This document shows, piece after piece, positions 3,330 to 24,344 of a stretch of 34,953 bases of DNA. Made by a program: the position numbers and the translations under genes. The stretch is from a virus: the IMG/VR virus record IMGVR_UViG_3300024999_000255, positions 1 through 34,953 of that record. One strand, given 5' to 3'. Every line of letters starts with the position of its first letter. The stretch's first letter is position 1. A model generated the notes under the pieces. It saw only the letters and a program-made list of their open reading frames with translations, made no database searches and was not told where the DNA came from.

Positions 3330-3353
3330 TAAAAATTAATCTGCGAGGCTAAA

Positions 3354-4463
3354 ATGGCTTTGAATCAAATTAAAGAAGAAAAGAAAAGAAAGTTAAAATC
3401 AGCCCCCTGGCTTAATAGAAGTAATCCTATGAGTACATATAATGAAGAGGGTAAGCCAATAACGCTGAATCAAACTCCTCGTATAATTAATGCAATTGAT
3501 AATTTAAAAAATACAGCAGAATATAGAAAAAGTATTAATGATCCTACAAAAGCTTTTAGTGCAGAAGCTTCTACTAATGAAAAAAACAATTTAAAATTTA
3601 TTAATTCTCATCCTGATAGAGTTGGTCAAGGAACGAGAATAGTTGAAAGAAATGTGTTACCATCAGTAAATACTTTACAAACTGAAAGTCCTAAAATAAA
3701 TGAAACTCCTAATGTCCAAAGAGATGCAGAGTTAGGTAAAATGACTGTATCAACTGATGGCGATACAACTACTTATGATATTGGTGAAAATACTCTTTCG
3801 TATAAAGGCGCCAAGGGTAAGATTAATTTACGAAATATAAATCAGCAAGCAGATAAGCAGCAACCTACTTGGGATGATTATTTTAATCAGCAAGCAGCAA
3901 GAAGAGATACTCTTCGTGGTAGATTCTTTGGAGTAAATCCAATAACTACAGAAGAGCCTAGTGATGATAGTATGGGTGGATTGTTTGTAAGAGGTATTCA
4001 AAGTAGAAAAGATAGGGCTGATTCACAAATAGAAAATGCTGAAGCAGAACAAGAGGTTAATCGTGCAAATTTTCTTTCTACTTTAGATCGTAATCAGATT
4101 GCAAGGGATCAACTTTCTCTTGATGCAGATAAGAATCGGATAGATGAGCAGGAAGTTATTGCAGAAAATAAATTGCGAGATATTCAGGGAGAGGTATTGC
4201 AAAATCCTCCAATTAATGAAAATCCATTAAAGCCCTTGGTAATTGAAGAACCAGATCCAAATGATCCTACTGGGATGACCAAGAGACAAGTAATTAAAAT
4301 GCCAAATGCTGAAGGCACAGGATATGTTGATAATATGCCAACAGCAACTACTACACCACAAGTTACTCCTGAACAAAGAACTAAGATTAATGCATTGATT
4401 AAATCTAATCCAAACATTACTAGAGAAGTTATTCTTCAGAAAATCGCTAATGGAGAAATATGA
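3354..4463 (+). CDS. hydrophilic, probably disordered putative virion protein
   Basis: The protein is 369 aa, with GAGG 7 bases before the ATG. It is highly charged, rich in N, K, E, Q and T, and contains almost no hydrophobic core segments. A helical stretch around residues 215-285 (rich in E, N and R) could form a coiled coil. No catalytic motif is recognised. It ends with ATG overlap into the giant gene (stop at 4461-4463, next ATG at 4460), so the two are coupled. Small hydrophilic proteins directly before a giant polyvalent protein are often internal virion proteins or scaffolds. The function stays unassigned. Confidence 0.5.
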   Translation: MALNQIKEEKKRKLKSAPWLNRSNPMSTYNEEGKPITLNQTPRIINAIDNLKNTAEYRKSINDPTKAFSAEASTNEKNNLKFINSHPDRVGQGTRIVERNVLPSVNTLQTESPKINETPNVQRDAELGKMTVSTDGDTTTYDIGENTLSYKGAKGKINLRNINQQADKQQPTWDDYFNQQAARRDTLRGRFFGVNPITTEEPSDDSMGGLFVRGIQSRKDRADSQIENAEAEQEVNRANFLSTLDRNQIARDQLSLDADKNRIDEQEVIAENKLRDIQGEVLQNPPINENPLKPLVIEEPDPNDPTGMTKRQVIKMPNAEGTGYVDNMPTATTTPQVTPEQRTKINALIKSNPNITREVILQKIANGEI

Positions 4464-11279: not shown

Positions 11280-11322
11280 GCCAGAACCTACGAAACATTG
11301 TGGGTTCTGGCAATTTTGTTTT
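11280..11322. terminator. bidirectional rho-independent terminator between convergent transcription units
   Basis: A 12-bp stem (11280-11291 with 11300-11311, one G-T wobble, outer part GCCAGAACC/GGTTCTGGC) closes an 8-nt loop. It is followed on the + strand by AATTTTGTTTTA. On the - strand the same stem is followed by TTTCTTGTT. It sits between the stop of the giant + strand gene and the stop of thyX on the - strand, as expected where two operons converge. Confidence 0.9.
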
Positions 11323-12184
11323 ATAAAAACTCTTCCCAAGGCATCATATTCATTACTCGTTGCATATCTGGATGAGCAGATTTTGATGTTCGTAGCTTCC
11401 TGATATGCGCCCATTCAGCAGCATCTGCTGTGACCACGATCTCGGTCTTCAGAGCATTGGGCAGGACGGCCCGGGCTTGTTGAGGTTTGAGGTTTTCTTC
11501 AAGAAGTTGTCTATAAGTATCTTCTGCATTCTCGCATAATTGCCAAAACATACTTTGAGCAAACCAATCCCAAGCTTCAAATCCATTTGGCTCAATAAAC
11601 TCCATGTTCTTGCCGCCGTAGTTCACATACCTGGTTGATTCCTGAGCAAAGCTGCATGGTCTGTGCCGAACCAATTCATGACTGACTCCACGATCACAAA
11701 TGAACTTGGCGCTGTACCTGTGGAGTTCCTTGGGGATTTCGTCATGAGGGCAAATTTCCCAAGATGACTGCAACGCCAGCATGCTTTGATCAAACAATGC
11801 TCCATATAATTCTACAAAGGGCATAAGCACTGCAGCGTATCTAATTTCCATAGTTACTTGCGCCCATGCTGTTAAACTACCGCCTACATAGATATAATTT
11901 TTCCATACTTTAACATTAATATATTTTCCTAACTGTTCTGTCATTAATGCAATATATGCAGGAGTGAAATTGTTATTAGCTCGTACCACAAAATTCGAAT
12001 GCTCAACCATAGCCAGATGCCCAGCCTTGATCAGCTTCTTGACAAACCCTTCTGCACTATCTTCAGTAATCTTGTCTTCTGACTTATAGCAAGTTCTTCC
12101 TGCCATCTCAATGAACTTAAGGGCAGCATTATATTCTGTAGGTACTGCTCCAAAGAATTCTACTGATGGTTTGATGATTTTCAT
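11321..12184 (-). CDS. thyX: flavin-dependent thymidylate synthase ThyX
   Basis: The protein is 287 aa. ThyX makes dTMP from dUMP using FAD, NADPH and methylenetetrahydrofolate. The signature RHR-x2-S-x4-STRY is at residues 173-186, preceded by a basic/aromatic helix with SHELV. An N-terminal segment containing the Cys-Tyr-Lys-Ser of a typical ThyX flavin pocket (31-35) and HLAMVEHSNF (56-65) also fits. The ATG at 12184 overlaps the upstream stop (ATGA) and has GAGGAG 6 bases before it, which fixes the start. It is the last gene of the leftward cluster and stops in the T-run of the bidirectional terminator. In the Z-genome model it would supply the thymidylate that pairs with aminoadenine. 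Phage thyX is common and is not itself diagnostic. Confidence 0.96.
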   Translation of the reverse strand: MKIIKPSVEFFGAVPTEYNAALKFIEMAGRTCYKSEDKITEDSAEGFVKKLIKAGHLAMVEHSNFVVRANNNFTPAYIALMTEQLGKYINVKVWKNYIYVGGSLTAWAQVTMEIRYAAVLMPFVELYGALFDQSMLALQSSWEICPHDEIPKELHRYSAKFICDRGVSHELVRHRPCSFAQESTRYVNYGGKNMEFIEPNGFEAWDWFAQSMFWQLCENAEDTYRQLLEENLKPQQARAVLPNALKTEIVVTADAAEWAHIRKLRTSKSAHPDMQRVMNMMPWEEFL

Positions 12185-12399
12185 ATTTTCTCCTCATGAT
12201 GTACACAGCCAAATTTTGGACCAGTCCAGAAATCACCACCTTCAGAATAAGAATATACCAAAGCATCCACTTTGTAACTATTACTCCCCCAATCCTCACA
12301 GAGTTTTTCGTGTGTGCATTCCCCTCCGATTATAGCATCGTCTAAAGCATATTCTCTATGTGGAAACTTCCAGTGTTTGCATGTTTCACAGTAGTTCAT
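12181..12399 (-). CDS. small Cys-rich hypothetical protein
   Basis: The protein is 72 aa, beginning MNYCETCKHW. I chose the ATG at 12399 because GGAG lies 10 bases upstream and the previous gene stops at 12404; the ATG at 12420 would overlap that gene. Cysteines occur as C-x2-C near the N terminus, then two more spaced about 25 and 31 residues later, and a final C-x-H-H. This suggests a zinc-binding fold as seen in many small phage proteins of unknown role. It overlaps thyX by 4 bases (ATGA), so the two are coupled. Confidence 0.7.
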   Translation of the reverse strand: MNYCETCKHWKFPHREYALDDAIIGGECTHEKLCEDWGSNSYKVDALVYSYSEGGDFWTGPKFGCVHHEEKI

Positions 12400-12403
12400 A
12401 ATA

Positions 12404-12676
12404 TCATTCTCCATCTTCATGAGCTAAAGCTGTTATTAAATCATTATACAAATCCTCTCTGGGATCAATTATAAAATCTTTTGCTATTTCTTCTCTCTTT
12501 GGTCTATTCATTAACTGTGCTTTTATTTTAGATAAAACTTGTATCTGATAATTGAGAACTTTAATCTTTTCCTTAATTGAAATTATACTAGCCTCTGTTA
12601 AGTTTTTATGAAGAAATTCTCGAAGCAACGGAGCATTAATATTTGCTTGATCAAGTGTTTTCAGATGTGATTTCAT
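12404..12676 (-). CDS. hypothetical helical protein
   Basis: I place the start at the ATG at 12676 (protein MKSHLKTL..., 90 aa) because AAGGA lies 8 bases upstream. The longer frame reaching 12745 has no comparable site. It overlaps the 3' end of the preceding small gene (stop at 12651) by 26 bases. The protein is mostly helical and charged, with a Leu/Ile heptad-like stretch (about residues 20-55) that could form a coiled coil. It ends DALxH-EDGE-like. No family is recognised. Confidence 0.6.
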   Translation of the reverse strand: MKSHLKTLDQANINAPLLREFLHKNLTEASIISIKEKIKVLNYQIQVLSKIKAQLMNRPKREEIAKDFIIDPREDLYNDLITALAHEDGE

Positions 12677-12845
12677 TATTAGTTCCTTCAACGATTTTAA
12701 TACAATCTTTAATTGCCTGTATGGTGGCGGCAGCTGTAACTCCATTAGGAATTATTACGTTGGCTGCATCTCTAGTTGGTTCGTTTTCACGATCAAGTAA
12801 GAAGGCTTGGAGTTTTTGCAACACGTTATTTTTGAAGTTAGGCAT
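12651..12845 (-). CDS. small hypothetical protein with hairpin-borne ribosome site
   Basis: The protein is 64 aa with an N-terminal charged helix, an NVIIPNGVTAAAT segment and a second short helix. No recognised domain. The Shine-Dalgarno GGAGG lies in the loop of a perfect 6-bp hairpin (12852-12868), about 10 bases from the ATG, so translation may be controlled by RNA structure. It lies between the small genes that separate the PurZ homologue from thyX. Confidence 0.6.
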   Translation of the reverse strand: MPNFKNNVLQKLQAFLLDRENEPTRDAANVIIPNGVTAAATIQAIKDCIKIVEGTNNEITSENT

Positions 12846-12851
12846 TTTTAT

Positions 12852-12868
12852 TACACCCTCCAGGTGTA
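12852..12868 (-). promoter_or_regulatory. hairpin presenting the ribosome-binding site of the 64-aa gene
   Basis: On the transcript strand TACACC and GGTGTA form a perfect 6-bp stem around a 5-nt loop, and the loop plus first stem base contain GGAGG, the ribosome site of the gene starting at 12845. This resembles a small translational operator. No known binding protein is recognised. Confidence 0.45.
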
Positions 12869-12878
12869 GTTAATCACT

Positions 12879-13103
12879 TCAAGTTTTGCATGGAACTTCT
12901 GGCTCAACAGAATTACCAGTTTTAATTACAGTTTGTTTTGCAGCCTTAGGAAAAGCTTTAACAATTTTCTTCTCTGTTATATGTCCAAGTGCAGCATTCA
13001 ATCTTTTGATCATTCCAGCCAGCCAGTCTCCATGAGATTTGAATTGCAATAATTCGCATTCGTCTAGAGCATTTTGTAAATCTAGTTCAGTTAGTTTTTT
13101 CAT
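12879..13103 (-). CDS. hypothetical protein downstream of purZ
   Basis: The protein is 74 aa from the ATG at 13103; a TTG at 13118 is an alternative but has no better ribosome site. The start lies inside the 3' end of the purZ frame (17-base overlap), so expression is probably coupled to purZ. The N-terminal two thirds are helical (ELDLQNALDECELL, then a Trp-containing helix), and the C-terminal third is basic with KAFPKAAKQTVIK. I see no catalytic motif. Because it is coupled to purZ it is a candidate accessory of that step, but that is inference. Confidence 0.6.
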   Translation of the reverse strand: MKKLTELDLQNALDECELLQFKSHGDWLAGMIKRLNAALGHITEKKIVKAFPKAAKQTVIKTGNSVEPEVPCKT

Positions 13104-14013
13104 AAGGTGTTTTAACAAACTCTTTTATTGATGAACCAAAGCCAAAAAGATTAAAATTGTATTGATCATTTAATGTATTTAACTCTTTTGATGAAATATA
13201 ATCACAATGATTTAAAACAAGATGCGTTGGTTGATTAATCTTTATTGCACTATTGACAAGTTCATATTGAAACCCTCCTACTCTTCTAACTCGTTTTGTT
13301 ACTGTAGTGTATTCTTCTGGTTTATTTAATTCCTGCCAAGAAGTTTCTTCTTCTAATGGTCCAGATTTTCCAGCAACTCTTATAGCTTTTGTTCTGCAGA
13401 CTAAAACAATTGTATCTACTGTTAATGGACTTATTCCAATTTCTGAAAGATACGATGCAGCTGTTGTATCACGAGATGTTACATATGGATAATGTGGAGA
13501 ATGATGAAGGGATAATCCAAATCCTTGAGTTCCTTCAATTATTAATCTTTTAGCAGAATGCATGATATCTATTGTATCTGCTATGTAAGGTTTAAGCTCT
13601 TTAAGGTCTTTTGCAAATATAATTCTATTACTTCTTAACAATTTATTTATCAATGCTGCTCCAGTACCAGAACAAGTTGAAGAAATTGATTTAAAATTAT
13701 TAAGTTCAAATGTTATATCTGTTCTATCAATACATACAGCTTTTGGATCTATAAATACTTTGCCTGGAATGTTTTTAATTTCTTGCAAAACTTTAATTGG
13801 ATCAATAAAGCTTCCAGCAGAAATTATTGAAACGGCTCCAGATAAAGAAGCTCCAGGAAAGTTATTAAAAACTAATCCTTCAACTGTATGTCCAGAGTTT
13901 ATTCCTCCAGATCTAACAACTACATCTGCATTTTGTTTCTTAGCAAAGTATAAGGCTGTTTTACCCTTGCCTTCAGATCCATATTGCCCTCCTACAACAA
14001 TAGTTGCTTTCAT
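13087..14013 (-). CDS. purZ: PurZ, N6-succino-2-amino-2'-deoxyadenylate synthase (adenylosuccinate synthetase family)
   Basis: The protein is 308 aa starting MKATIVVGGQ. The ATG at 14013 has AAGGA 9 bases upstream and follows the previous stop; an in-frame ATG at 14037 would lack this. The PurA-family P-loop reads GQYGSEGKGK (residues 9-18), with Ser13 where PurA has its catalytic Asp13. NSGHTVEG (39-46) keeps the catalytic His. TCSGTGAA (113-120), IEGTQG (159-164), YPYVTS (175-180), RRVGG (243-247) and a C-terminal NHCD (268-271, NKxD-like) match later PurA motifs. At 308 aa it is much shorter than bacterial PurA (about 430), as expected for phage PurZ. PurZ condenses dGMP with aspartate using ATP, and host PurB then releases dZMP. 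Known family facts are from memory, and activity is inferred. Confidence 0.9.
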   Translation of the reverse strand: MKATIVVGGQYGSEGKGKTALYFAKKQNADVVVRSGGINSGHTVEGLVFNNFPGASLSGAVSIISAGSFIDPIKVLQEIKNIPGKVFIDPKAVCIDRTDITFELNNFKSISSTCSGTGAALINKLLRSNRIIFAKDLKELKPYIADTIDIMHSAKRLIIEGTQGFGLSLHHSPHYPYVTSRDTTAASYLSEIGISPLTVDTIVLVCRTKAIRVAGKSGPLEEETSWQELNKPEEYTTVTKRVRRVGGFQYELVNSAIKINQPTHLVLNHCDYISSKELNTLNDQYNFNLFGFGSSIKEFVKTPYEKTN

Positions 14014-14026
14014 TAATTTATCCTTA

Positions 14027-14362
14027 TTAGTTTTCATGCTTAACTATCTTAGCAAGTTCTTGTTCTTTCTCACTCAACTTTGCATAAAGCATTCCTGCAT
14101 AGTGTGCAATCTTTAACAGATCAAGCATCTGTTGGCCTTCCCTAGAGTTTTTTCCATAACGATTTAGATATTTTTTCATCTGGGTGATAAAGTCAGCCTC
14201 GCTAAATTCAGAGCATTGATCATGACCTTTATCTCCGTATTGTGGAACTGTGTAAGATTCAATATGATTGTACACTCTTTTACTAAATTTTGACCATTCG
14301 ATTGCACGTAATGAAGGAATAGGTTCGTAATCTTCTTCTGATGGACAAGGATCAATTTGCAT
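14027..14362 (-). CDS. conserved phage-type hypothetical protein
   Basis: The protein is 111 aa with motif YTVPQYGDKGHDQC (residues 37-50), then KYLNRYGKNSREG and LLKIAHYAGMLY. I recognise this arrangement (PQYGD, YLNRxGK-R, DLLKIAHYA) from small conserved proteins of many phages that lie near nucleotide-metabolism genes. I know of no established function. It ends 13 bases before the purZ start, so it is in the same operon. The C terminus is charged and helical. Confidence 0.7.
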   Translation of the reverse strand: MQIDPCPSEEDYEPIPSLRAIEWSKFSKRVYNHIESYTVPQYGDKGHDQCSEFSEADFITQMKKYLNRYGKNSREGQQMLDLLKIAHYAGMLYAKLSEKEQELAKIVKHEN

Positions 14363-14384
14363 AGTTAAGCTCCATTAAAATATT

Positions 14385-14717
14385 TTATTCTTCTTTTCTG
14401 ATAATTTCTAATAGCTTAGAAAACCAATTTTTCTTTGTCTCTATAGTTTTATCAAGTTTTGATTTAAATTCATAATTGATACTAAGTCCTAAAGCAATAC
14501 CAGATAAATGAAGAGTACTATACTCAGAATTTTTTACTGTCATTGTAGCTATTATTTTATTTCCTTGAAAAACATTTACATCATAAAAACTTTTTTTATT
14601 ATCAATCGCAAAATGAAGATCTTTTATATAATGATTATTATCTGATCCAGAAATAATATCTAACTCACCTGCTAAAATCATATTATAAAAAGCATCTGTA
14701 AACGTAAATTCAGGCAT
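14385..14717 (-). CDS. hypothetical protein
   Basis: The protein is 110 aa, with an ATG just after the upstream stop and GGAGC 6-7 bases before it. It has alternating beta-like segments (residues 25-85) framed by an N-terminal short helix and a basic, Trp-containing C-terminal helix (KKNWFSKLLEIIRKEE). Its composition is strongly AT-rich, like its neighbours. No family is recognised. Confidence 0.6.
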   Translation of the reverse strand: MPEFTFTDAFYNMILAGELDIISGSDNNHYIKDLHFAIDNKKSFYDVNVFQGNKIIATMTVKNSEYSTLHLSGIALGLSINYEFKSKLDKTIETKKNWFSKLLEIIRKEE

Positions 14718-14719
14718 AA

Positions 14720-15034
14720 TTAAGCTCCATTATTATGTTTTTCTATTTTTGCTACAAGATCTTTCAAACCTTTTTCAATCTTATAAAGTCTTTCAAGTTC
14801 AGTAGTTGCTTGTAATCTTGCTGTACGTAATTCAAGTTCATCAATACCATAAGGGTTTCTAAGGTAAGATATCATAATATTTCTTTCCATAACTATTCTT
14901 TTTGTTGTATAAAGTGATTCATTTGTTGTAAAAGAATATGGGAAAAAACTTCCAGCATATAATTCTGGATGCAATGCTTGGCATGTTTTACATGCACTTG
15001 ATGGTAATGAACAACAGCAATTTATTCCTGACAT
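14720..15034 (-). CDS. hypothetical protein with N-terminal cysteine cluster
   Basis: The protein is 104 aa. AGGAG 11 bases upstream supports the first ATG. The N terminus has CCC followed by C-x2-C within about 20 residues, so a metal site is possible. The C-terminal half (from about residue 60) is a long charged helix with heptad-like Leu/Ile spacing, probably coiled coil. It lies between the exonuclease gene and two further hypothetical genes leading to purZ. Function unknown. Confidence 0.55.
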   Translation of the reverse strand: MSGINCCCSLPSSACKTCQALHPELYAGSFFPYSFTTNESLYTTKRIVMERNIMISYLRNPYGIDELELRTARLQATTELERLYKIEKGLKDLVAKIEKHNNGA

Positions 15035-15048
15035 AATAATCGATTCTC

Positions 15049-15675
15049 CTATATTTGCCCCATGTTAGGCGTCACAATTCCTCTATTTACCAACTCAAAA
15101 AAGCATCGCTTAGTTGCACTGATATCTGCATAAGCATCATGAGCACCATCGAAGCATTCACCAAATAAGTGCTCATGCAGCTCGGTTAGCTTGGGCCATT
15201 TTGCACGACCAGCCTTGTTTTTCAAGCCACACATTTTTACCACAGCCTTATCTTTCATGGTACAATGGTTTGGCAGATCCAAGTAAAATGCAGACCTAGC
15301 TTCATCAGTTAGGTTATCAAGGTTTCGTTCCATCATCTGATAAACGTAGTTCCAATCAAAAGCAAAGTTATGACATACAACTAAGTCAGCCTGCCGTAGC
15401 ATTAAGCCAAATTGTTCAGCAGCAATTAGTTCGTCTATGCCTTCTTGGTCGGCTCGCTCAATGGTGATGCCATGTACTTCTTGAGCATAATAATTCATTG
15501 ACCTGCCATTACTTTTGATGATTACATTCATTTGATCAAATTCTTCTTCTTGGCTGGCAAGAATTGCTCCAATCTGTACTGTCCATGCTTGCTCGGGATC
15601 GTTAGCTGGAAGAGCTTTTTTAATAAAATCTGAAGTTTCGGTGTCAAAAAAGAGTACTTTTGTAGCTGGTGTCAT
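15049..15675 (-). CDS. DnaQ-like DEDDh 3'-5' exonuclease
   Basis: The protein is 208 aa. Exo I is FFDTETSDF (Asp11, Glu13), Exo II is HNFAFDWNYV (Asp107) and Exo III is HDAYADISAT (His179, Asp184). This is the complete DEDDh set of the proofreading-exonuclease family related to the epsilon subunit of DNA polymerase III. The ATG directly follows the stop of the DUF3987-like gene (TAAATG), with GGAG 9 bases upstream. Because the polymerase in this cluster has its own exonuclease domain, this enzyme is extra. It could act in recombination, nucleotide salvage or additional proofreading. Confidence 0.9.
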   Translation of the reverse strand: MTPATKVLFFDTETSDFIKKALPANDPEQAWTVQIGAILASQEEEFDQMNVIIKSNGRSMNYYAQEVHGITIERADQEGIDELIAAEQFGLMLRQADLVVCHNFAFDWNYVYQMMERNLDNLTDEARSAFYLDLPNHCTMKDKAVVKMCGLKNKAGRAKWPKLTELHEHLFGECFDGAHDAYADISATKRCFFELVNRGIVTPNMGQI

Positions 15676-16947
15676 TTAGTTTTTCTCCATTTGATTTTTA
15701 ATAATATTTCTGTCCATCAATCTAAATACTGTTCTGTCAAGATATGTTGGATCACGAATCTTTTGTTTCTTCCTAATAGTGGTGTACATGCAAGTTGTGG
15801 CAGAATTCTCTGCTTTGAGTATCCCAGACTGTTCAGCCATTTCAACATATCCACGTAACTGAGGGATGTTGTCTACATCTAGGTGGAAATTTCTAACCAA
15901 TTCTGTCCACTCAAAAGATTCGTGAGCATCAATGAATGAAAGTATCTTTGCATAGATGTTAGCCTGACTGGATAATCCAAGTCCATAAAAAGCGTTTGGC
16001 ATTTCAAGTTCTGTTGCTTGCATTATAGCTAAGGCTTGCTCAAAATGTTCAGCCGTAATGATCATATCGTCAGACTCGGCAGCACAGACCAGCATGCAAA
16101 CCTTATTCAAATGAAGTGGCCGCCTATGATTATAGCCTAAAAATCGCTCACTTGGAACTCCAGATTCGTCATAATCTTGCTCATACCAGCGCACATAAGT
16201 TTTGAGAAAATCCTTACTTAGGGCGAACTGTCCAGATAGGTTTGCAATTTCTTGTAGATCATTTTCTAACTTCTTTTGTGTATCTTCCTCTTCTTCAGTC
16301 AAGAACTGTAAGGCTCTTCTTTGCTTCGGACCCTGGCCAACTACAAAAATGATCCGAGAGATTAGACCTCCACCAACAGCGTCTTGACTCAGCTTAGATT
16401 GCAAGAGACTAGGAGTTATGCATCCAAAAAGCGTTAGCCAACAATTGGATATGTCTTCAGTCTTTCTGGCTAAGGTTTTATACTTCCAAGTATCTGCACA
16501 ATCAAACAGGTCAGTCAGGGATGCTAAGAGCATCTGGTCTCTGTCGTTCAGGAAGACTTGAAATTCTTCTGACCAGATTGATACGCTCTTATGCTTGCGA
16601 GTAAGTCCAGCATGGTCAACATAAGTATCTTCACTGTCCATGAGTTCTCTATATAATGCCTGGGTGGAGCCTAGCGAATCTGCACCGATATTAACATCTA
16701 GTTTTTGTACAAAGCTCTTTGCAATCTTCATGGCTGTGCCTTTCCGTCCTCCAGGTGGACCGACAAGAGATACGAATAAATTAGGATAAACATAACCACG
16801 AAGTGCTCCCCAGTTACAATAGCACTTTCTTCGTAAGGCAGAAGCTATTGCAGTCAGTCCAGACCACAAATGGTATAGTTCTGGTGGCTCTGTTCGCTGT
16901 GTGTACTTCATATAGTGTGCCAACCAATTATCTAATTGCCTCGACAT
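15676..16947 (-). CDS. DUF3987-like phage replicative ATPase/helicase
   Basis: The protein is 423 aa. The N-terminal pattern PPELYHLWSGLTAIASALRR (residues 21-40), then YPNLFVSLVGPPGGRKGTA (54-72), is characteristic of the DUF3987 group of phage and plasmid primase-helicase-like proteins. GPPGGRKGT is the Walker A loop. A Walker B-like WSEEFQVFL follows near residue 125, and an LTLFGCITPSLL segment and a VGGGLISRII motif follow further on. The C-terminal ~110 residues look like winged-helix material. It lies between the polymerase and the exonuclease, so it is the best candidate for the replication helicase or primase-helicase. A separate primase is not visible. Confidence 0.75.
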   Translation of the reverse strand: MSRQLDNWLAHYMKYTQRTEPPELYHLWSGLTAIASALRRKCYCNWGALRGYVYPNLFVSLVGPPGGRKGTAMKIAKSFVQKLDVNIGADSLGSTQALYRELMDSEDTYVDHAGLTRKHKSVSIWSEEFQVFLNDRDQMLLASLTDLFDCADTWKYKTLARKTEDISNCWLTLFGCITPSLLQSKLSQDAVGGGLISRIIFVVGQGPKQRRALQFLTEEEEDTQKKLENDLQEIANLSGQFALSKDFLKTYVRWYEQDYDESGVPSERFLGYNHRRPLHLNKVCMLVCAAESDDMIITAEHFEQALAIMQATELEMPNAFYGLGLSSQANIYAKILSFIDAHESFEWTELVRNFHLDVDNIPQLRGYVEMAEQSGILKAENSATTCMYTTIRKKQKIRDPTYLDRTVFRLMDRNIIKNQMEKN

Positions 16948-16979
16948 GAAAAGGTTCCTTGAATAGCAAATACTAATTT

Positions 16980-16995
16980 AATGGGCTTTCCCATT
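16980..16995 (-). promoter_or_regulatory. small hairpin between polymerase and helicase genes
   Basis: AATGGG and CCCATT form a perfect 6-bp stem around a 4-nt loop in the 62-nt gap between the polymerase stop and the helicase start. It lacks a downstream T-run, so it is not a typical terminator. It could be an RNA-processing site or translational operator. Confidence 0.35.
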
Positions 16996-17009
16996 TTATT
17001 ATCTCTTAA

Positions 17010-19532
17010 TTAAAAACCTATCTTTTCAATAGCTTTATCACATTCTTCTTGAGTGAACTTACTGATCTCAGCCGTATTGCCAGCCCATTGGGTGCCTATC
17101 TTAGCATCCAAGCCAATAGTGAAACTCTTTCCCTTGTAAGTAAATGTGTGTGTCAAATGGTCTTTAATGATAAGAAGAATTTGAGGCAAGTTTATAATCT
17201 GATTTTTGTGAAACCTAAATACGAATGAATCATGAACAGTTGTCATACACCGAATGTCAAAGCCATCTTTGCCGAGCCGAGGATCATTCACTACCTTTAT
17301 CATTCCACGATTGAGCAACTCAGCTACAGTTGATTGAGGCTTGTAGCTATAGGCATTTCTGAATAGTGCTGCATTCATTTCACCTAAGAACCTGCGAGGC
17401 CGGCCAAATAAGTTGTAGAGAACTCGATTCTTTTGAACCTCTTCTTCGATTGATCTGTGCCAGCGTTTCAATCCAGGAAAGCGGTCAGAATAACTATCAA
17501 GTAATCGTTTGCATTCTGACTGTGATTTGAAAATTTCCTCCGCCGCTAGATTGTCAGAGAATGTCTGTGGGCCCATTGCATAGTTCGAGGCATGAACAAC
17601 CTTCTTGCCCATGTAACGCATGGTAGATTTCTGATCAGCCTTTTTAGTTTTAGCCTCATGAATTACTTCTTCAATTGAAACATTGAATATCTTGCTTGCA
17701 TTAAAGCTATGCACGTCAATTCCGGATTCGAATGACTGGATCATGTTAGCATCTTGAGTAAGATATGCAACTACATGAGCCTCAGCCTTAGCAAGATCAC
17801 ATTCGCAGAGAATCCAATCTGGATCAGCAATGAGATAATATTTAAAAACATATGGCTGATTCTGAAGGTTCGATCCAGTACCAAAATAAGTCTTTTCTGT
17901 AGCAATCCTGCCGGAAACTGTACCCGAGATTTTATGGTTACAACGGAGACGCTTATCATCATCGACTTGAATATTAAAGTATGTAGATACGAGCTTTTGG
18001 TACTTACGAATCTTTATTATGATTCTAGCTTCTTCAGAACCTTTAACATCTTTCTTTGCAATTCTGTGAAGGGCTACAGTATCACAGGTGACTGATCCAG
18101 TTTTGCGATTCACATATGGTTTAATCATACAAGTGCCGTAGAAGTATGCGACCATTTGTTTCGCTGAACCTGGATTAATTTCCTTGCCTGCAAGTTTATT
18201 CAGCTCTGCTTGAAGCTCAATCAGTTTGATTTCATACTCAGATTTGATCTTTTCAATTCCATCTGTGTCAGTCAAGATGCCATTGAATTCCATTTCTATG
18301 AGCGGCTTATGGAGGTTCATTGTATAATCCATAGCATCCATAGAATCGAATTCACCTAACTCTTCAAGAAGCTTCTCAGTTATTGGCAATAAGTATGCTG
18401 AGTCTTTGGCATTATAAGTCCAGTATTGTGGCCAGTTTTTAATAGCCTTAAGGTGTGATTGCTTACCTTCGTCTTTGTAATATGGAAAGTATGTGTAGGT
18501 TGAAGTTAGGTAATCAAGACCTTTCGGGAGTTCAGTATAGCAGATGTGTTGTGCAAGCATTGTATCAAAATAAAAGTTATCTGTTTTAATCATCATAGTA
18601 CGGAAAGTAAACATGATGTCGAACATTCCATTTTGACAAATTTTACCTATGGCTTCATCATTAAGTATTTCGGCTAGGCCAGTCCAGATTTTTATCTCTT
18701 CTGCTGTTTCCCAATAATTGCCTTGGTTGTTCATTAGAGGAACAGACATGGATAGAATCTTGTTATCATGATAAACTGCCAAAGAATAGCAGGTAATAAA
18801 TTCTGGCGTAGCTTCAATATCAAAAGCTACATATTGCTTTGTCTTAATCAATGCATAGAACTGCATGATTTCTTCAAAGCTAGGCTTGATTTTTATTTCT
18901 ACATTATCGGTGAGCAATTCTGGATCTTCAATGATTCGTAGGGCTTTTGTAAAGTCTGCAATCATTGTATAGAAGTGGATAGGCTGTCCGTATGGGAGGG
19001 TGAAAGATGGATGATAAGACAAACCTATTATCTTGCCAGCCAGTTTGTCTTTCAAATGAGGAAAGTCTTCAGCGTGGTAGAATGAGCCACGATATTTTGT
19101 GATTGAATCGAACTTAGGCTCGTCCAGCAAGAGTCGCATTGGAGTTGCCCCTAGCAACATTATGACTTTGCCGGGAAATTGAGCAAGTTCGTCAATTAAG
19201 GCTGCTTGCAACTTGCTCCAGTCTGGATGACGATAGCCTTTATCAGTCCATAAGACAGCGGTATTGTTTTTGGGAAACTTAGCTTTGCAAGCATTGGTGA
19301 GATAAATTTTATATCTAGCGAGTCTGACGGCTGCACAGATGCGATTAAGCTGAGAGCCTGTCGGACCTACGAATGGTTCGTTCTTCAGGACTTCTATCTC
19401 ACCTGGAGCTTCGCCAACCATTGCTATTTCAGCAGTGAGTATGTTATCAGTTGGAGCGCACTCTACAGCCAAGCAATTGAAAGAACCTTCTTTCTGCGGA
19501 GTTGCTGTAGTTGATATGCTTGGAATTATCAT
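17010..19532 (-). CDS. family A DNA polymerase with UDG-like N-terminal domain (candidate DpoZ)
   Basis: The protein is 840 aa. Residues about 30-200 resemble a family 4/5 uracil-DNA glycosylase fold: GEAPGEIE (40-47), PFVG-x2-G (53-59), TNACKAKFP (79-87) and YHPSF (173-177). The usual C-x2-C of the iron-sulfur cluster is not seen. The 3'-5' exonuclease is intact, with FDIEATPEF (Asp238, Glu240), NGMFDIMF (Asp305) and YNAKDSAY (Asp377). Polymerase motif A is CDLAKAEAHVVAYL (Asp579, Glu584). Motif B has R639, K643 and Y651, with His647 at the place of Phe762 of E. coli Pol I. Motif C is VHDSF (His767, Asp768). It is the replicative polymerase of this phage. PurZ context makes it a candidate aminoadenine-preferring DpoZ; sequence alone cannot prove preference. 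Confidence 0.9.
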   Translation of the reverse strand: MIIPSISTTATPQKEGSFNCLAVECAPTDNILTAEIAMVGEAPGEIEVLKNEPFVGPTGSQLNRICAAVRLARYKIYLTNACKAKFPKNNTAVLWTDKGYRHPDWSKLQAALIDELAQFPGKVIMLLGATPMRLLLDEPKFDSITKYRGSFYHAEDFPHLKDKLAGKIIGLSYHPSFTLPYGQPIHFYTMIADFTKALRIIEDPELLTDNVEIKIKPSFEEIMQFYALIKTKQYVAFDIEATPEFITCYSLAVYHDNKILSMSVPLMNNQGNYWETAEEIKIWTGLAEILNDEAIGKICQNGMFDIMFTFRTMMIKTDNFYFDTMLAQHICYTELPKGLDYLTSTYTYFPYYKDEGKQSHLKAIKNWPQYWTYNAKDSAYLLPITEKLLEELGEFDSMDAMDYTMNLHKPLIEMEFNGILTDTDGIEKIKSEYEIKLIELQAELNKLAGKEINPGSAKQMVAYFYGTCMIKPYVNRKTGSVTCDTVALHRIAKKDVKGSEEARIIIKIRKYQKLVSTYFNIQVDDDKRLRCNHKISGTVSGRIATEKTYFGTGSNLQNQPYVFKYYLIADPDWILCECDLAKAEAHVVAYLTQDANMIQSFESGIDVHSFNASKIFNVSIEEVIHEAKTKKADQKSTMRYMGKKVVHASNYAMGPQTFSDNLAAEEIFKSQSECKRLLDSYSDRFPGLKRWHRSIEEEVQKNRVLYNLFGRPRRFLGEMNAALFRNAYSYKPQSTVAELLNRGMIKVVNDPRLGKDGFDIRCMTTVHDSFVFRFHKNQIINLPQILLIIKDHLTHTFTYKGKSFTIGLDAKIGTQWAGNTAEISKFTQEECDKAIEKIGF

Positions 19533-19542
19533 TACAAGTTCC

Positions 19543-19728
19543 TTATAATTTTTTACCTACTTGAATTCCATTATCAAGCGTTACAATAAACACATTATCA
19601 CGAGTATCAAATATAATTTTATCAACAACTATGTTTTCTTTTAATACTACATTGTTTAACCAATATTGAACTCCTTGAGTAATACTAGCAATAGTAAAGG
19701 TCATTTGAACTGGCTTTGTATTTTCCAT
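19543..19728 (-). CDS. small hypothetical protein
   Basis: The protein is 61 aa. AGGA about 7 bases upstream of the ATG, overlapping the previous gene's last codons, supports the start. Its pattern is mostly beta (ASITQGVQYWLNNVVL, then DNVFIVTLDNGIQVG), compatible with a small beta-barrel. It lies 11 bases before the polymerase gene. Function unknown. Confidence 0.6.
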   Translation of the reverse strand: MENTKPVQMTFTIASITQGVQYWLNNVVLKENIVVDKIIFDTRDNVFIVTLDNGIQVGKKL

Positions 19729-19729
19729 T

Positions 19730-19999
19730 TTATATCCTATCCTTTGTTAATGATCCTGGATTCGGAGCCTTTATTTCCTGTTTGCAATCTAAGCAAAGAT
19801 AAGAACGAACTCGAATAACATTTGCACTGATGATGTTAATAGCAAAGTTATAGTTTGGCTCATTCTTATAGCCATTTGGCCAGCTCTTAGAGGCAAAACC
19901 TATTTCGAGTGGCACGATGTTTTTGTGTAGGCAACAGTTAGAACCAGGCGTAATGAGAGCTTTCTGTTCTGATAGTTGACCTACTTTATATTTTGTCAT
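19730..19999 (-). CDS. small zinc-ribbon-like hypothetical protein
   Basis: The protein is 89 aa from the ATG at 19999, which has GGAAA 7 bases upstream; the ATG at 20011 gives four more residues but has no ribosome site. It has CC-x-H in the first third and C-x2-C near the C terminus (LCLDCKQ), separated by a beta-rich segment. This is the spacing of a split zinc ribbon. Neighbours are another small Cys-rich gene and the polymerase. Function unknown. Confidence 0.6.
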   Translation of the reverse strand: MTKYKVGQLSEQKALITPGSNCCLHKNIVPLEIGFASKSWPNGYKNEPNYNFAINIISANVIRVRSYLCLDCKQEIKAPNPGSLTKDRI

Positions 20000-20030
20000 A
20001 ACTATTTCCATGAACTAATTTTATTTTAGG

Positions 20031-20144
20031 CTATGATGGAATTAAATATACTTTATCAGGCTTATTCTTTTTATCTAGCCACTTTAAGCATCTTTTCTCA
20101 CAATTAGTCTTAGCTTCTTTACAACAACATATAAGTTTTCCCAT
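20031..20144 (-). CDS. 37-aa cysteine-rich micro-protein
   Basis: This short frame begins with an ATG 3 bases after the stop of the methyltransferase gene, with AGAAGG about 9 bases upstream. It encodes MGKLICCCKEAKTNCEKRCL and then a basic, Trp-containing tail, 37 aa in all. It has five cysteines (CCC, then C-x3-C) and 9 lysines, so it looks like a tiny metal-binding basic peptide. Good ribosome site and tight spacing support it. Length makes it uncertain. Confidence 0.5.
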   Translation of the reverse strand: MGKLICCCKEAKTNCEKRCLKWLDKKNKPDKVYLIPS

Positions 20145-20146
20145 AA

Positions 20147-21577
20147 TCATAGACCTTCTACCTCAGCAGTTATCCCCAGATAATTTTCAAGTCTCTGGTA
20201 AAATTCTGGAATATACTTCTGGCTTTTATCACAACCAACTGGCATCATTTTTTCTTTAGCTGCACTAATTAAGCAATTGCCAGATCCTGCGAAGAGGCTC
20301 ATAAATAAAGTACCAGGTTTACCTAATGCTTTTAAGAAATGATCATAAAGTTCTATAGGCTTTTCCCACTGGTGAATTCGTTGAGAAGAACTGACTGTAC
20401 TTATGTTAATTGAAGATGACAAGCTAGGCGTATTAAACTGAGCATTGCCCTTACGCAGTAGTAAAAACATTTCCCAGTTGCTTACCATATTTGTCTTCGG
20501 CTTATTGGTACTGCCACCAACTTTGTTCCATGATCCAGGAGACTGAGTTCCAAATCCTATGTCTCTGGCAATGTTGTTGATCTGTAGAAAATGTTCTTTG
20601 CCTGTCCAGACTAAAGCCCAACTACAGTCAAGCATTTTCTCATAGACTAACGGAAGATAATTGAAATAAAAATCATAAAGTTCTTTTTCATCCCAATCTT
20701 GAGCTTTACATTCGATCTTATTCGTTTTACCATAATTGTCATTAAACTCAATCGCATAAGGAGGATCGAGTTCTACCATTCCTACAGAATTGCTTGGAAT
20801 CTTATCTAGGAAGGTCTTGTAGTTTTCAGCCACATAAATTACTTGAATACTAGAGCTGATTTGTTCTTGCTCATCGTTAAGGTCTTCATCATCTTCGTCA
20901 AACTCGGTAAGTTTTTCTTTGGCCTGCTTGGTTTTCTCAAACACATTCTGATTTACCGTATTTTTTATAGGTGCTGTCATGGTTCCGTTTTGCAACGCAA
21001 CTAAACGCCCTTTTTCAGCATCGGTAAAACTTCCCATTCGCTGAAGTGCCTTAGCTTGTTCACCAAGAGCTTTGTATGCTTCCTTAGCCCGGCCCTTAGT
21101 AGTCTGTTCTTTCAAGATTGGAAAGACTTTTAGAGCTTCAGCGAAAGCAAGATCAGTAGATAAGCCACCAAGACTGCACTTGAGCCTCTTGGCTGTTTCT
21201 CTGTAGCCCCAAGATTTACCTTCCTTGCCTGCGGCTTCAACCCAATAGTTGTGCAGCTTATACTTGAGGTCTATTTCCTCATGCCACAAGAATTCCTTGC
21301 GGTCCATATTACTAAGAAGTTCAATCAAGAAGTGATCGTCTTCAGTAATGCCGTCGAATACTCGGACTTCAATGGTTTCTTTGCCAAGTTTCTTAAAAGC
21401 CTCGATGCGATGCAAGCCATCGATTAATACGTTATTTGAATCTATGAGAATCGCATGAAGCTGGCCGACCATAGAGATTGAATCGGCTAGGCTGGAGATG
21501 TCACCAACTGCTGAACGTGCGCGGTCTTTGATGATAATGTCTGAGATATTTCTTTCTTCTATCTGAAATAATTGCAT
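20147..21577 (-). CDS. ParB-like domain fused to DPPY-type DNA methyltransferase
   Basis: The protein is 476 aa. The N-terminal ~80 residues are a ParB/Srx-like domain: DRARSAVGDISSLADSI, GQLHAILID, then DGLHRIEAFKKLG (53-65). A helical middle (about 95-240) includes an HTH-like region and an acidic linker (225-240). The C-terminal methyltransferase has DPPY (271-274, motif IV) before FAGSGN (429-434, SAM-binding motif I), so it is a beta-class amino-methyltransferase acting on N6 of adenine or N4 of cytosine. ParB-methylase fusions are common in phages and may protect DNA or act as anti-restriction. If adenine is replaced by aminoadenine here, the substrate becomes a question. It ends 3 bases before the Cys-rich micro-gene. 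Confidence 0.85.
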   Translation of the reverse strand: MQLFQIEERNISDIIIKDRARSAVGDISSLADSISMVGQLHAILIDSNNVLIDGLHRIEAFKKLGKETIEVRVFDGITEDDHFLIELLSNMDRKEFLWHEEIDLKYKLHNYWVEAAGKEGKSWGYRETAKRLKCSLGGLSTDLAFAEALKVFPILKEQTTKGRAKEAYKALGEQAKALQRMGSFTDAEKGRLVALQNGTMTAPIKNTVNQNVFEKTKQAKEKLTEFDEDDEDLNDEQEQISSSIQVIYVAENYKTFLDKIPSNSVGMVELDPPYAIEFNDNYGKTNKIECKAQDWDEKELYDFYFNYLPLVYEKMLDCSWALVWTGKEHFLQINNIARDIGFGTQSPGSWNKVGGSTNKPKTNMVSNWEMFLLLRKGNAQFNTPSLSSSINISTVSSSQRIHQWEKPIELYDHFLKALGKPGTLFMSLFAGSGNCLISAAKEKMMPVGCDKSQKYIPEFYQRLENYLGITAEVEGL

Positions 21578-21586
21578 AGCTTTAAC

Positions 21587-21877
21587 CTAATTTAAATTTT
21601 GAAACTGCCTTTTGATTAACTCGATTTGATCTGCTGAAAGTTTGCCAAGCAAGTCAGTTGCATTCTTGGTAGGATCAGCCAGCATCTTCTTGCCGCGCTT
21701 TGTTCCAGAGTTCTTGGAAATATTCTTCATTGCAGACTTTGTGATCTTTTGAGACTTTACAAGTGCTGCGTTCAGTGCAGAAGTTCGCATAGTCCGAACG
21801 CGTTCAATCAATCTGGCCTGCTCTGGATAAGACATTTCTAAGAATGATCGACAGTAAATACGATCCATTAGAGCCAT
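21587..21877 (-). CDS. basic hypothetical protein
   Basis: The protein is 96 aa with AGGAGGA about 6 bases before the ATG. It has an N-terminal helix (SFLEMSYPEQARLIERVRTMRTSAL), a Lys/Arg-rich centre and a C-terminal amphipathic helix (SADQIELIKRQF). Its net charge is strongly basic, so nucleic-acid binding is possible. It is sandwiched between the MazG-like and methyltransferase genes. I recognise the general look from phage genomes but no named family. Confidence 0.6.
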   Translation of the reverse strand: MALMDRIYCRSFLEMSYPEQARLIERVRTMRTSALNAALVKSQKITKSAMKNISKNSGTKRGKKMLADPTKNATDLLGKLSADQIELIKRQFQNLN

Positions 21878-21889
21878 AAATGATCCTCC

Positions 21890-22372
21890 TTATCTATGAT
21901 CTCCAGAACCACCTAGCTTGTTGCGTTCTTTACGATCAGCAAGTTTATTAATGTTCATTATTGCTATATCTTCAAGTGCTATTTCAAGGTCATAAGCTGT
22001 ACAAGCTACATACCACAAAACATCTCCAAGCTCTTTAGATATTTCAGCCTTATCAAGTAATGAAACAAGCCCATCTTTGTCACGATAAATCTTTTTGAGC
22101 TTACCTGCTACTTCACCAGCTTCATTGGCAAGTCCAAGAATGTGACAATCAAGAGCTTTGTCTGGTGGATAAATGTCAGTTGATTTTGCCAGGCTTTGAT
22201 ATTCATTGAAGGTCATCATATTATCCTTCGTCGGCTTAACTTCTTCACATTGATACCAATCAGAATAACTATCCTTACAAGATGTGTTCTGAAGACCATC
22301 TTTAGTACATACATGATCTGGTCCTCCATCATGCCAGTGCCATTTTCTGTATGGACAGCCCATATCGTTCAT
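21890..22372 (-). CDS. mazZ: MazG-like nucleotide pyrophosphohydrolase, candidate MazZ
   Basis: The protein is 160 aa. Residues about 53-160 are a MazG-like helical domain: NEAGEVAGKLKK (83-94; Glu84, Glu87), then SKELGDVLWYVACTAYDL (112-129; Glu114, Asp117), and the C-terminal KLADRKERNKLGGSGDHR typical of phage MazG-like proteins. ExxE and ExxD are the Mg-binding set. In Z-genome phages MazZ cleaves dGTP (and GTP) to the monophosphate, supplying dGMP for PurZ. An unusual N-terminal extension of ~50 aa has Cys6, Cys22, Cys32, Cys42 and several His/Trp, probably a metal-binding domain. The ATG at 22372 has GAGG 7 bases upstream; an internal Met at 52/53 would give the bare MazG domain. MazZ is inferred from PurZ in the same cluster; alone it would be called MazG-like. 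Confidence 0.8.
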   Translation of the reverse strand: MNDMGCPYRKWHWHDGGPDHVCTKDGLQNTSCKDSYSDWYQCEEVKPTKDNMMTFNEYQSLAKSTDIYPPDKALDCHILGLANEAGEVAGKLKKIYRDKDGLVSLLDKAEISKELGDVLWYVACTAYDLEIALEDIAIMNINKLADRKERNKLGGSGDHR

Positions 22373-22374
22373 AG

Positions 22375-22593
22375 CTATTCCTCTATGCCTGGCAAAGTTA
22401 ATGCCTTACCCTTGTACATATAATCAAGAACCTCATTCAGTTTTCCACCATTAATTATGCTTTTCAACGAAAGGAATATTTGCCTGAACAGTTTTGTTTG
22501 CTGTCCATGATGGAAGTGTTCCTGGACTTGTTCGTACAAATCCTTATCTATTCGTGCAGTTACTTTACATTCTTCTTTGAGCATTTTGTTCAC
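22375..22593 (-). CDS. small putative DNA-binding protein (ribbon-helix-helix-like)
   Basis: The protein is 72 aa from a GTG whose last two bases overlap the ligA stop (GTGA); an ATG at 22584 gives a protein three residues shorter. VTARIDKDLYEQVQEHF (11-27) reads as a beta strand followed by a helix, and GQQTKLFRQIFLSLKSII follows as a second helix, which fits a ribbon-helix-helix fold. The C terminus is MYKGKALTLPGIEE. A role in regulating the operon is possible. Confidence 0.6.
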   Translation of the reverse strand: MNKMLKEECKVTARIDKDLYEQVQEHFHHGQQTKLFRQIFLSLKSIINGGKLNEVLDYMYKGKALTLPGIEE

Positions 22594-24344
22594 CGTAATA
22601 AGTTAAAAAGTTGTTCCTCAGTTATCTGAGGTATGTTGTAACGAGTTGCCTTTTCTATCTTGGTTCTTCCTGGATCATCTCCGACAACTAAGTAATTTGT
22701 TTCTCTAGTTACTCCAAATGAAAATTCATATCCATAACTGTTCAGAATTTCAATCATTGTTTCCCTGGATTGGCTTAACGATCCGGTAATACAATAAATT
22801 GCTTTCGCTTCACTAGGTAATGGAGCGAAGGAAAAGTTTTTCATTTCCTTAATTGCTTCTGTATAAATAGTTGCAGCAGTAATAAAGCTACGTTTAGCAT
22901 TATCAGTTATGTGAATATTAATCTGGCCGGTTTTTAAATATTGGCAAAGCCGCAAAGATGACTTATATGCTAATCCTGGTAAGCCCAAGCCTGCTACAAA
23001 ATGTGCCATTGTGCATTGGTTATTCATTGAAAATACTTGTTCAGCAATGTTGCTATAAATTGTTACCCCGATTGTATTTATTATGTCTGGTACAATTTCG
23101 TAGCTAAGAGGATCAAGAAGTGCCCAAGGCTTGGTTGACAGAACTGAATAACATTTTTCATTCTGGAGTAGTTTTTCTATAATGCCTTCACCAACTCCGT
23201 CGATTTTTATTCCTTTTTGAGAGTAGAAGTAAGCAATGGATACAATTGATTTAGCTATGCAATTGTCGCCATTACAAACAAGATGTACTCCTTCCCACTG
23301 AAGAATTTCGCTACACTTTGGACATCGAACTGGAACTGGTTCATAAAGACTAGGATCAAGAAAGTTTCTAACACTTAATATTTTTGGAATTATTTCGCCA
23401 GCTTTACCTATAATAATGGTTGAGCTAGGTATAATCTCACGATCTTTAACCCACTGAGCATTATTACCTGTTACGCGATTATTTGTTGTACCACAAAGTT
23501 CAATTGGTTCATATACAACTGTTGGAATTGCCCGACCGAGTCTACTAATATTCCATTCAATGTTAACAACTTTTGTTTCTTTAACTTGGATCGGAGGCTT
23601 CCAGGCTATGCTCCAGTTATTGGTTTGGCCATTATTACCTGCAACCAGCCGAACTTTTTCGTCTGCAACCTTGATCATGATACCATCCATCGGATAGATT
23701 TTTGACCATTTGTTATATGTCTCAAGCAGAAAATCTCCCATAGCTTCTAAGCTACCGGAGTAGATGTATTCTTCAAATAGGTTGCCATGATTATGGGGGA
23801 TTGCTGTCATTAGGGCAGAAGGCTTGTCATATTTTCGGTCCAGCCAGCCAGCAACTACATTTCTTGGGTTGGCTCCATAATCTGGATTCCACTCGTTCAG
23901 TGGGATAAGAATCTCTACTGGTTGAAAATGCCTAAGTTGGAAAGGAAACGTAATGTATGGCATTAAGTGAGTTATGTCCCGTCCACATCTTCCGTCACCT
24001 TCAAGAGTTATGTTCACTCCAGTATCTGTAAGAGTTATAACTGCTGCACAGCCATCATATTTGGGCTCGATTCGAAGTTTGTAGCTGCCAAACCTTGTAA
24101 GGAATGGCTTAAGGTCGAGCATGTTGAATGCTTTATTCGTTCCATATATTGGATGCTTGTGCCAGGCTTTGCCAGTCAGTGCAGTCCGACCTTGTGCGGT
24201 ATGGTAAAGGATATTATTATGAGGGTCTATGGCATAAAGTTGTTGCCACAACAGATCGTATTCGCTGTCTGTCATGAATGGTATGCCAGAAGCATAGGCC
24301 ATGTTAGCTTGGGAGATTTCTTTTATGAGTTGTTCATGATTCAT
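22590..24344 (-). CDS. ligA: NAD+-dependent DNA ligase LigA
   Basis: The protein is 584 aa. It has a complete domain order for a bacterial-type ligase: Ia-like segment with PFMTDSEYDLLW (22-33), adenylation motif IEPKYDGCA (92-100; Lys95 is the nucleotidyl acceptor), GDGRCGRDIT (116-125), OB fold around 255-330, a four-Cys zinc finger (Cys341, Cys344, Cys357, Cys362), helix-hairpin-helix region, and a C-terminal BRCT domain (about 505-584, with YLVVGDDPGRTKIEKA). It is somewhat shorter than bacterial LigA (about 670 aa). AAAGGAG about 8 bases before the ATG sets the start. It seals nicks in phage replication and recombination. It is the first gene after the structured-RNA region. Confidence 0.96.
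   Translation of the reverse strand: MNHEQLIKEISQANMAYASGIPFMTDSEYDLLWQQLYAIDPHNNILYHTAQGRTALTGKAWHKHPIYGTNKAFNMLDLKPFLTRFGSYKLRIEPKYDGCAAVITLTDTGVNITLEGDGRCGRDITHLMPYITFPFQLRHFQPVEILIPLNEWNPDYGANPRNVVAGWLDRKYDKPSALMTAIPHNHGNLFEEYIYSGSLEAMGDFLLETYNKWSKIYPMDGIMIKVADEKVRLVAGNNGQTNNWSIAWKPPIQVKETKVVNIEWNISRLGRAIPTVVYEPIELCGTTNNRVTGNNAQWVKDREIIPSSTIIIGKAGEIIPKILSVRNFLDPSLYEPVPVRCPKCSEILQWEGVHLVCNGDNCIAKSIVSIAYFYSQKGIKIDGVGEGIIEKLLQNEKCYSVLSTKPWALLDPLSYEIVPDIINTIGVTIYSNIAEQVFSMNNQCTMAHFVAGLGLPGLAYKSSLRLCQYLKTGQINIHITDNAKRSFITAATIYTEAIKEMKNFSFAPLPSEAKAIYCITGSLSQSRETMIEILNSYGYEFSFGVTRETNYLVVGDDPGRTKIEKATRYNIPQITEEQLFNLLR

Follow-up and report, generated by a model that had tools for sequence, protein, structure and literature searches.

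The window, a linear fragment of 34,953 nucleotides (IMG/VR record IMGVR_UViG_3300024999_000255, positions 1-34,953), carries a purZ-like gene (13087-14037, minus strand) whose product is probably a PurZ-type deoxyguanylate-aspartate ligase of a third, mostly cellular clade of such enzymes, encoded as a single accessory gene outside any 2-aminoadenine (Z) cluster and expected to support at most partial 2-aminoadenine in phage DNA. The initial annotation had described a Z-genome module here, composed of a PurA homologue, a MazG-like enzyme acting as MazZ and a family A polymerase, with the thymidylate synthase ThyX nearby. All four named genes are real and all lie on the minus strand; their distribution among related phages is described below.

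Active-site residues of the PurZ-like enzyme

The gene encodes 316 amino acids if read from the ATG at 14037 (PF00709, 1.5e-36). Its start is probably the ATG at 14013, giving 308 amino acids, because a relative that is 94% identical (L002) has an in-frame stop upstream of the position matching that ATG. The GSEGKG motif, which had been placed at residues 12-17, does fall there when counted from 14013, and at residues 20-25 when counted from 14037. Compared with the GDEGKG of canonical PurA, the motif lacks the catalytic Asp13. At the equivalent position (23 in S-2L PurZ, Asp13 in E. coli PurA) the window enzyme has Ser, as do all five window-clade rows of the alignment, 8/8 PurZ, 6/6 PurZ0 and 27/27 other viral rows, and all 12 canonical PurA have Asp. 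Position 273 is Thr in the window enzyme and, in the alignment, Gly in 12/12 canonical PurA. Ser23 and Thr273 are both common to the PurZ and PurZ0 enzymes that use deoxyguanosine monophosphate (dGMP). The most likely substrates, judging from these residues, are dGMP and aspartate, with 2-amino-2'-deoxyadenylosuccinate (dSMP) as the product.

The donor site points elsewhere. The residue at position 308 contacts the phosphate donor's base and is Asp in the window enzyme, in 6/6 PurZ0 and in 12/12 PurA, whereas the eight PurZ have Asn (seven) or Gln (one), so the ATP-type residue is absent from the window enzyme. Asp here predicts GTP as the likelier donor and makes ATP, the donor given in the initial annotation, unlikely. 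Tong et al. in 2023 reportedly found that PurZ0 uses GTP. One sentence of PMC12884076 (NAR 2026) interchanges which of PurZ0 and PurZ prefers ATP and which GTP, contradicting that paper's own introduction. An excerpt of PMC8342488 lists S23, T273 and Q308 among the substrate-contacting residues unique to PurZ; two of these three are matched by the window enzyme.

Phylogenetic placement

Two trees were built: a quick tree of 84 proteins, including 26 of the 80 cellular loci and 30 of the 76 viral loci (L105-L180), and a careful tree of 60 of the same rows (24 were removed by hand), for which supports are given as bootstrap/SH-aLRT (the latter being an approximate likelihood ratio test). Every enzyme with Ser or Gly at the active site falls in a single superclade outside canonical PurA in the quick tree (support 100, 72 rows), and the superclade is recovered in the careful tree (100/99, 54 rows). 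Within the superclade, the quick tree resolves PurZ (100), a group containing PurZ0 (89) and a third clade (99). The 38 rows of this third clade come from chromosomes (25 genes), viral contigs (8) and the window type (5), and the window type groups with 22 of them at a support of 97. In the careful tree the third clade has support of 98/97, and the window groups with 19 others at 100/97. Cellular members of the clade carry a signature of Ser for Ala at position 50 (75/80) and His for Phe at position 306 (65/80). The window type has Ser and His at these positions, matching the cellular rows, and 8/8 PurZ have Ala and Phe.

The approximately unbiased (AU) test rejects the union of the window clade with archaeal PurA (p 5.4e-4) and with the whole 11-row PurZ0 clade (p 0.009). 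A sister placement of the window clade to the 10-row PurZ clade as a whole is not rejected (p 0.209), so the third clade is the best-supported position, with a sister relation to PurZ still allowed. As far as the PurZ/PurZ0 superclade, tree and residues uphold the earlier call of the gene as PurZ; the clade, and probably the donor, differ. No placement inside cellular PurA was seen; together with a preference for IMP, that outcome had been named as counting against the call. The phage PurZ tree in PMC12884076 comprises two groups from phages plus four archaeal sequences that branch near its base. New here is a third, well-supported clade that consists mostly of chromosomal genes from many bacterial phyla and is associated with a conserved operon.

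purZ is an accessory gene in the phage population

A scan with the polymerase gave 44 loci, and 44 records (the window and 43 of these) were searched whole; the purZ-free contigs among them are not independent, as several appear to be one virus recovered from different samples. purZ occurs in 2 of the 44 records, the window and L232 (the contig of L001), and the first 21 codons of the gene are found at the contig end of L005. Two conserved open reading frames (ORFs) flank the gene and mark the purZ-free site in relatives: one of 79 amino acids downstream (12879-13118, minus strand) and one of 111 amino acids upstream (14027-14362, minus strand). Both are spanned in 30 of the 44 loci, with purZ present in one and absent from 29, which speaks against the proposed module. 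Sixteen purZ-free junctions were read: the two alignments are 10 bases apart in two of them and abut in one, and in eight a short ORF, identified by eye and ~215 bases long, fills the place (e.g., L234, 5554-5769). The same short ORF coexists with purZ in L003 (2535-3655). Because it replaces purZ in some relatives and accompanies it in another, the purZ place looks like a gene-swap hotspot. Five window-type genes, compared in ten pairs, give ratios of nonsynonymous to synonymous substitution rates (dN/dS) of 0.14-0.29. This indicates purifying selection on purZ, a lone accessory gene.

The window's thyX (11321-12184, minus strand; TIGR02170, 96.4 bits with a cut-off of 87.9) is present in relatives both with and without purZ. 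In L104, whose enzyme is 79% identical, purZ directly follows a thymidylate synthase that appears ThyA-like by eye (the two genes lie at 1633-2481 and 2497-3399); thyX in the window lies on the other side of purZ from L104's thymidylate synthase.

The polymerase and MazG-like gene recur without purZ

The polymerase (17010-19532, minus strand) joins a uracil-DNA glycosylase domain, a 3'-5' exonuclease and a family A polymerase (PF03167, PF01612 and PF00476). The N-terminal glycosylase domain (4.2e-14) had been overlooked; relatives in other phages align over this part too. NCBIfam scores are 64.6 bits for DpoZ_1 (cut-off 500), 49.1 for DpoZ_2 (cut-off 350) and 192.1 for Pol I. In a midpoint-rooted tree, in which rows L231, L135, L142 and L229 have long branches, the window polymerase groups (support 100) with L106 and five phages (LS06-2018-MD01, Mel-JY34, ctMlz233, Caulobacter phage Kuura and Pseudomonas phage Neko), away from DpoZ-1 and DpoZ-2. 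L106 has PurZ; a PurZ homologue was found in none of the five phages. These scores and the tree rule out the window polymerase as a DpoZ. Moreover, it is up to 98.1% identical to copies from purZ-free relatives, and no residue separates the three polymerases from purZ-bearing records from 28 near copies that lack purZ. The assignment of the polymerase to a Z module is therefore not supported.

The MazG-like pyrophosphohydrolase (21890-22372, minus strand; PF03819; phrog_229, 7.4e-36) is of the common phage kind. Its metal-binding ExxE/ExxD set was correctly noted: E84, E87, E114 and D117 are present and are invariant in nine aligned MazG and MazZ proteins. Overlooked was its distance of 7.9 kb from purZ. 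The interval holds several small ORFs and, all on the minus strand, a DnaQ-like 3'-5' exonuclease (15049-15675; PF00929, 7e-08; phrog_192), a DUF3987 protein classed by PHROG as 'DNA primase' (15676-16947; PF13148; phrog_14296), the polymerase, and a protein with a ParB-like domain and an N6/N4 DNA methyltransferase with a DPPY motif (20147-21577; PF01555; phrog_12047, phrog_498). The mazG place is spanned in 30 loci, of which 16 hold the window-type MazG, 8 another MazG-like ORF and 6 neither. purZ is missing from 15 of the 16 and from 7 of the 8. Phages with purZ carry a MazG-like gene, but so do most without it, of either kind, and this distribution, with the distance, does not support the reading of MazG as the MazZ of a module.

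MazG matches are widespread in phages (427 records), and the best 25 of the 427 come from Rhodococcus, Roseobacter, Mycobacterium, Gordonia and Lentibacter phages. The guanine-recognising Ile56 and Asp60 of MazZ-1 would correspond to Trp120 and Cys124 in the window protein by an ungapped helix compared by eye; MAFFT places a gap there. PF03819 is a poor test for MazZ because it missed the S-2L MazZ and found none in phiVC8. The second kind of MazG-like ORF is divergent and 125 amino acids long; it lies in the mazG place at L001:1330-1707, occurs in 8 of the 30 relatives, and in L232 matches PF03819 at E 0.002 (below the cut-off) and phrog_229 at 8e-05.

Proteins of the DatZ, DutZ, DmtZ-DutZ and DUF5664 types gave no tblastn match in the window at E 1e-5. 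Profiles for YfbR-like and dUTPase domains, which detected both phiVC8 and Wayne as controls, had no match in the window, in L106 (a 48.9-kb record) or in five shorter purZ-bearing records. No homologue of DatZ, DutZ or DmtZ that would complete the proposed module was thus found in the window. Co-location as evidence of a Z module is ruled out by the purZ-free relatives and by the distribution of PolA and MazG: the neighbouring MazG, ThyX and polymerase genes are standard replication genes of the lineage.

Farther along the same strand is an NAD-dependent DNA ligase, LigA (22590-24344; PF03120, PF00533, PF01653). The largest gene of the window is a single plus-strand ORF of 2270 amino acids (4460-11272) with no PHROG match. 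Window positions 12000-24000 had no megablast match among 50,697 phage records.

Cellular relatives occur in a conserved operon

The cellular loci (L024-L103) are the best 80 of 439 confirmed, found with two search patterns, one of which required Ser at the active site. The active-site residue is Ser in 69 of these best 80 and Gly in 10, a split that is not a census given the Ser-demanding pattern. A protein of ~690 amino acids with RNase_H_2 and P-loop parts is encoded directly upstream of the purZ-like gene in 63/80 loci, and a dCTP-deaminase-like gene directly downstream in 55/80. The upstream exonuclease/kinase and the downstream dCTP-deaminase-like gene occur together in 47/80, and 28/80 also have a deoxynucleoside kinase. 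This operon is conserved in many bacterial phyla and in archaea (e.g., L036:384-5089, with the RNase_H_2/P-loop kinase fusion, the PurZ-like enzyme, the dCTP-deaminase-like protein and the deoxynucleoside kinase). A strongly hydrophobic stretch of 19 residues is present in 68 of the 69 dCTP-deaminase-like proteins longer than 280 amino acids, and a model of one of these proteins has a dCTP deaminase/dUTPase fold with a long helix. A separate full-length PurA was found in 13 of 14 tested genomes with a cellular purZ-like gene, so the latter is not the housekeeping enzyme.

PADLOC does not name the operon and returned only weak matches to it (dCTPase, PDC-S44, DEDDh, Avs3b and VakA). Among the literature matches listed, judged by title and the opening of the abstract, no description of the bacterial operon was found. 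In variant loci (L091:6058-8352, L085:6073-8685, L087:4280-6061 and L098), a large protein follows the PurZ-like gene in place of the dCTP-deaminase-like gene; the one tested, from L091, is an AAA ATPase with a weak PADLOC match to IetA/TRIP13. PurZ-like/P-loop kinase fusions also occur, including L093:4455-6062, and their kinase is related to the C-terminal kinase of the operon exonuclease protein.

Neither the window nor the window clade matches the exonuclease (exo), dCTP-deaminase-like (dcd) or deoxynucleoside kinase (dnk) profiles of the cellular operon. In viral loci the exo profile matches the kinase part only, fused to PurZ in L114, L115, L136, L138, L163 and L174; the dcd profile weakly matches dUTPase-like ORFs in six loci, and the dnk profile weakly matches L151. 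A dUTPase-like ORF lies ≤3 kb from purZ in 39 of the 76 viral loci, paralleling the cellular order of purZ and dcd, and there is none in the window. One viral PurZ-like group near PurZ0 (L118, L121, L129, L140, L160 and others) has its own PolA group, and in it a dUTPase-like gene often lies directly downstream of purZ.

Discussion

How might a single synthase affect phage DNA? If the preferred reading is right, the window enzyme would, from its residues, convert dGMP, aspartate and GTP to dSMP; following the published pathway, host PurB and kinases would turn dSMP into the 2-aminoadenine deoxynucleotides dZMP (monophosphate) and then dZTP (triphosphate). The purine pool would be altered, and 2-aminoadenine would replace adenine in the DNA in part at most, because the window has neither a recognisable dATP hydrolase nor a Z-selective polymerase. 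According to an excerpt of PMC8342488, incomplete S-2L clusters in E. coli give less substitution than the full cluster, and the S-2L polymerase depends on DatZ to exclude A; by analogy, partial Z at most would be expected in the window phage. That level might suffice to weaken some defences that act by restriction or through nucleotides. Complete modification of the genome is doubtful because the gene comes from a mostly bacterial branch and stands alone among ordinary replication genes.

Several observations weigh against this interpretation. The NCBIfam PurZ profile NF038379 gives 212.7 bits, under its cut-off of 300 and level with the archaeal PurA profile NF003295 (211.6 bits, cut-off 368), so profiles are undecided on the identity of the enzyme. 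Fold comparison cannot separate PurZ from PurA: the predicted model (mean per-residue confidence, pLDDT, 92.9) is almost equally close to phiVC8 PurZ (6FM1, Z-score 38.6), PurZ0 (37.0) and archaeal PurA (36.9). The substrate is predicted from residues, and the AU test leaves room for a sister relation to PurZ. The polymerases compared from purZ-bearing records number three. A MazG-like gene of some kind, which may supply a dGTP-cleaving partner, is present in each of the three purZ-bearing records that span the mazG place. Finally, the HD-domain profile PF01966, which had no match in the window or in five relatives, also missed the known DatZ of SH-Ab 15497, and a dATP hydrolase could sit beyond the linear fragment or belong to another family than those searched for.

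Some of these points would suit the view of the initial annotation, that the window comes from a phage with a true Z genome, all adenine being replaced through the joint action of PurZ, PolA and a MazG in the role of MazZ. The PurZ-type active site, a MazG with four metal ligands, a family A polymerase, the MazG-like gene in 3/3 records and the unrejected link to PurZ are all as expected for such a phage, yet it would have to manage with no DatZ, DutZ or DmtZ homologue among its recognised genes, with a polymerase outside both DpoZ groups that is 98% identical in purZ-free relatives, and with MazG-like genes of two kinds that recur where purZ is lacking (15 and 7 loci) and, for the window kind, have their best matches in phages such as those of Rhodococcus, Roseobacter and Mycobacterium. 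The DPPY-motif methyltransferase weakly suggests a normal base as its target. We consider a genuine Z genome quite improbable. An ordinary adenylosuccinate synthetase, raising AMP synthesis during infection, is very hard to reconcile with the loss of the catalytic Asp, the Thr that replaces the Gly of PurA at position 273, the rejected union with archaeal PurA and the separate PurA in genomes with a cellular member; the near-equal profile scores are what speaks for it.

The cellular relatives raise other options. The enzyme may use a purine other than dGMP, with the aminoacylated nucleotide serving as a signal, decoy or antidefence product and not as a DNA precursor. Its nearest kin do sit in a conserved operon with an exonuclease/kinase, a deoxynucleoside kinase and a dCTP-deaminase-like protein with a hydrophobic stretch, and the clade has its own signature and, in 10/80 cellular rows, Gly at the catalytic position. 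We think such a product unlikely, given that Thr273 and Ser23 are those of dGMP-using enzymes and that the phage window matches no operon partner. A related idea, which we put forward as a possibility on the unlikely side, is that bacteria and archaea own a 2-aminoadenine-nucleotide operon for defence or signalling, and that the phage carries the synthase alone as a counter-measure or as a minimal, swappable DNA-modifying gene. Such an operon would combine the synthase, a partner of dUTPase/dCTP-deaminase fold encoded directly after it, a deoxynucleoside kinase and the exonuclease-P-loop kinase fusion. That partner's position directly after purZ has a parallel in many phages, where purZ is followed by a dUTPase-like gene.

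The third clade, the bacterial operon and a natural comparison of phages with and without purZ are what make the window interesting. The phage population amounts to a natural experiment, in which near-identical polymerases and flanks occur with and without the gene. Such pairs bear on whether one synthase and an ordinary polymerase suffice for Z in DNA, and on how Z genomes could begin.

Comparison with known systems

The PurZ enzymes of phiVC8, S-2L and SH-Ab 15497 resemble the window enzyme in fold, Ser23 and Thr273. Unlike it, they have Asn or Gln in place of Asp at the donor site, and they are separated from it in trees. In S-2L, mazZ and datZ lie directly beside purZ, whereas purZ in the window adjoins neither. 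PurZ0, known from Gordonia phage Archimedes (7VF6) and Arthrobacter phage Wayne, shares the Ser, Thr273, the donor-site Asp and ~38% identity, and 7VF6 is the best PDB match of the third-clade profile (298.6 bits). However, union with its clade is rejected, and Wayne's dUTPase-type DutZ and DpoZ-1 were not found in the window.

With respect to the surrounding genes, the closest parallels are Desulfofustis phage LS06-2018-MD01, Microcystis phage Mel-JY34 and ctMlz233. Although no PurZ homologue was found in their records, they share a PD-(D/E)XK nuclease, the methyltransferase and the DUF3987 protein, and their PolA aligns with that of the window over most of its length, glycosylase part included. 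For purZ itself, the closest kin outside the window clade are the cellular operon genes. These stand beside an exonuclease/kinase and a dCTP-deaminase-like gene, whereas the phage gene stands alone, but the enzymes are up to ~50% identical and share the NSGHT and LNHxDY motifs.

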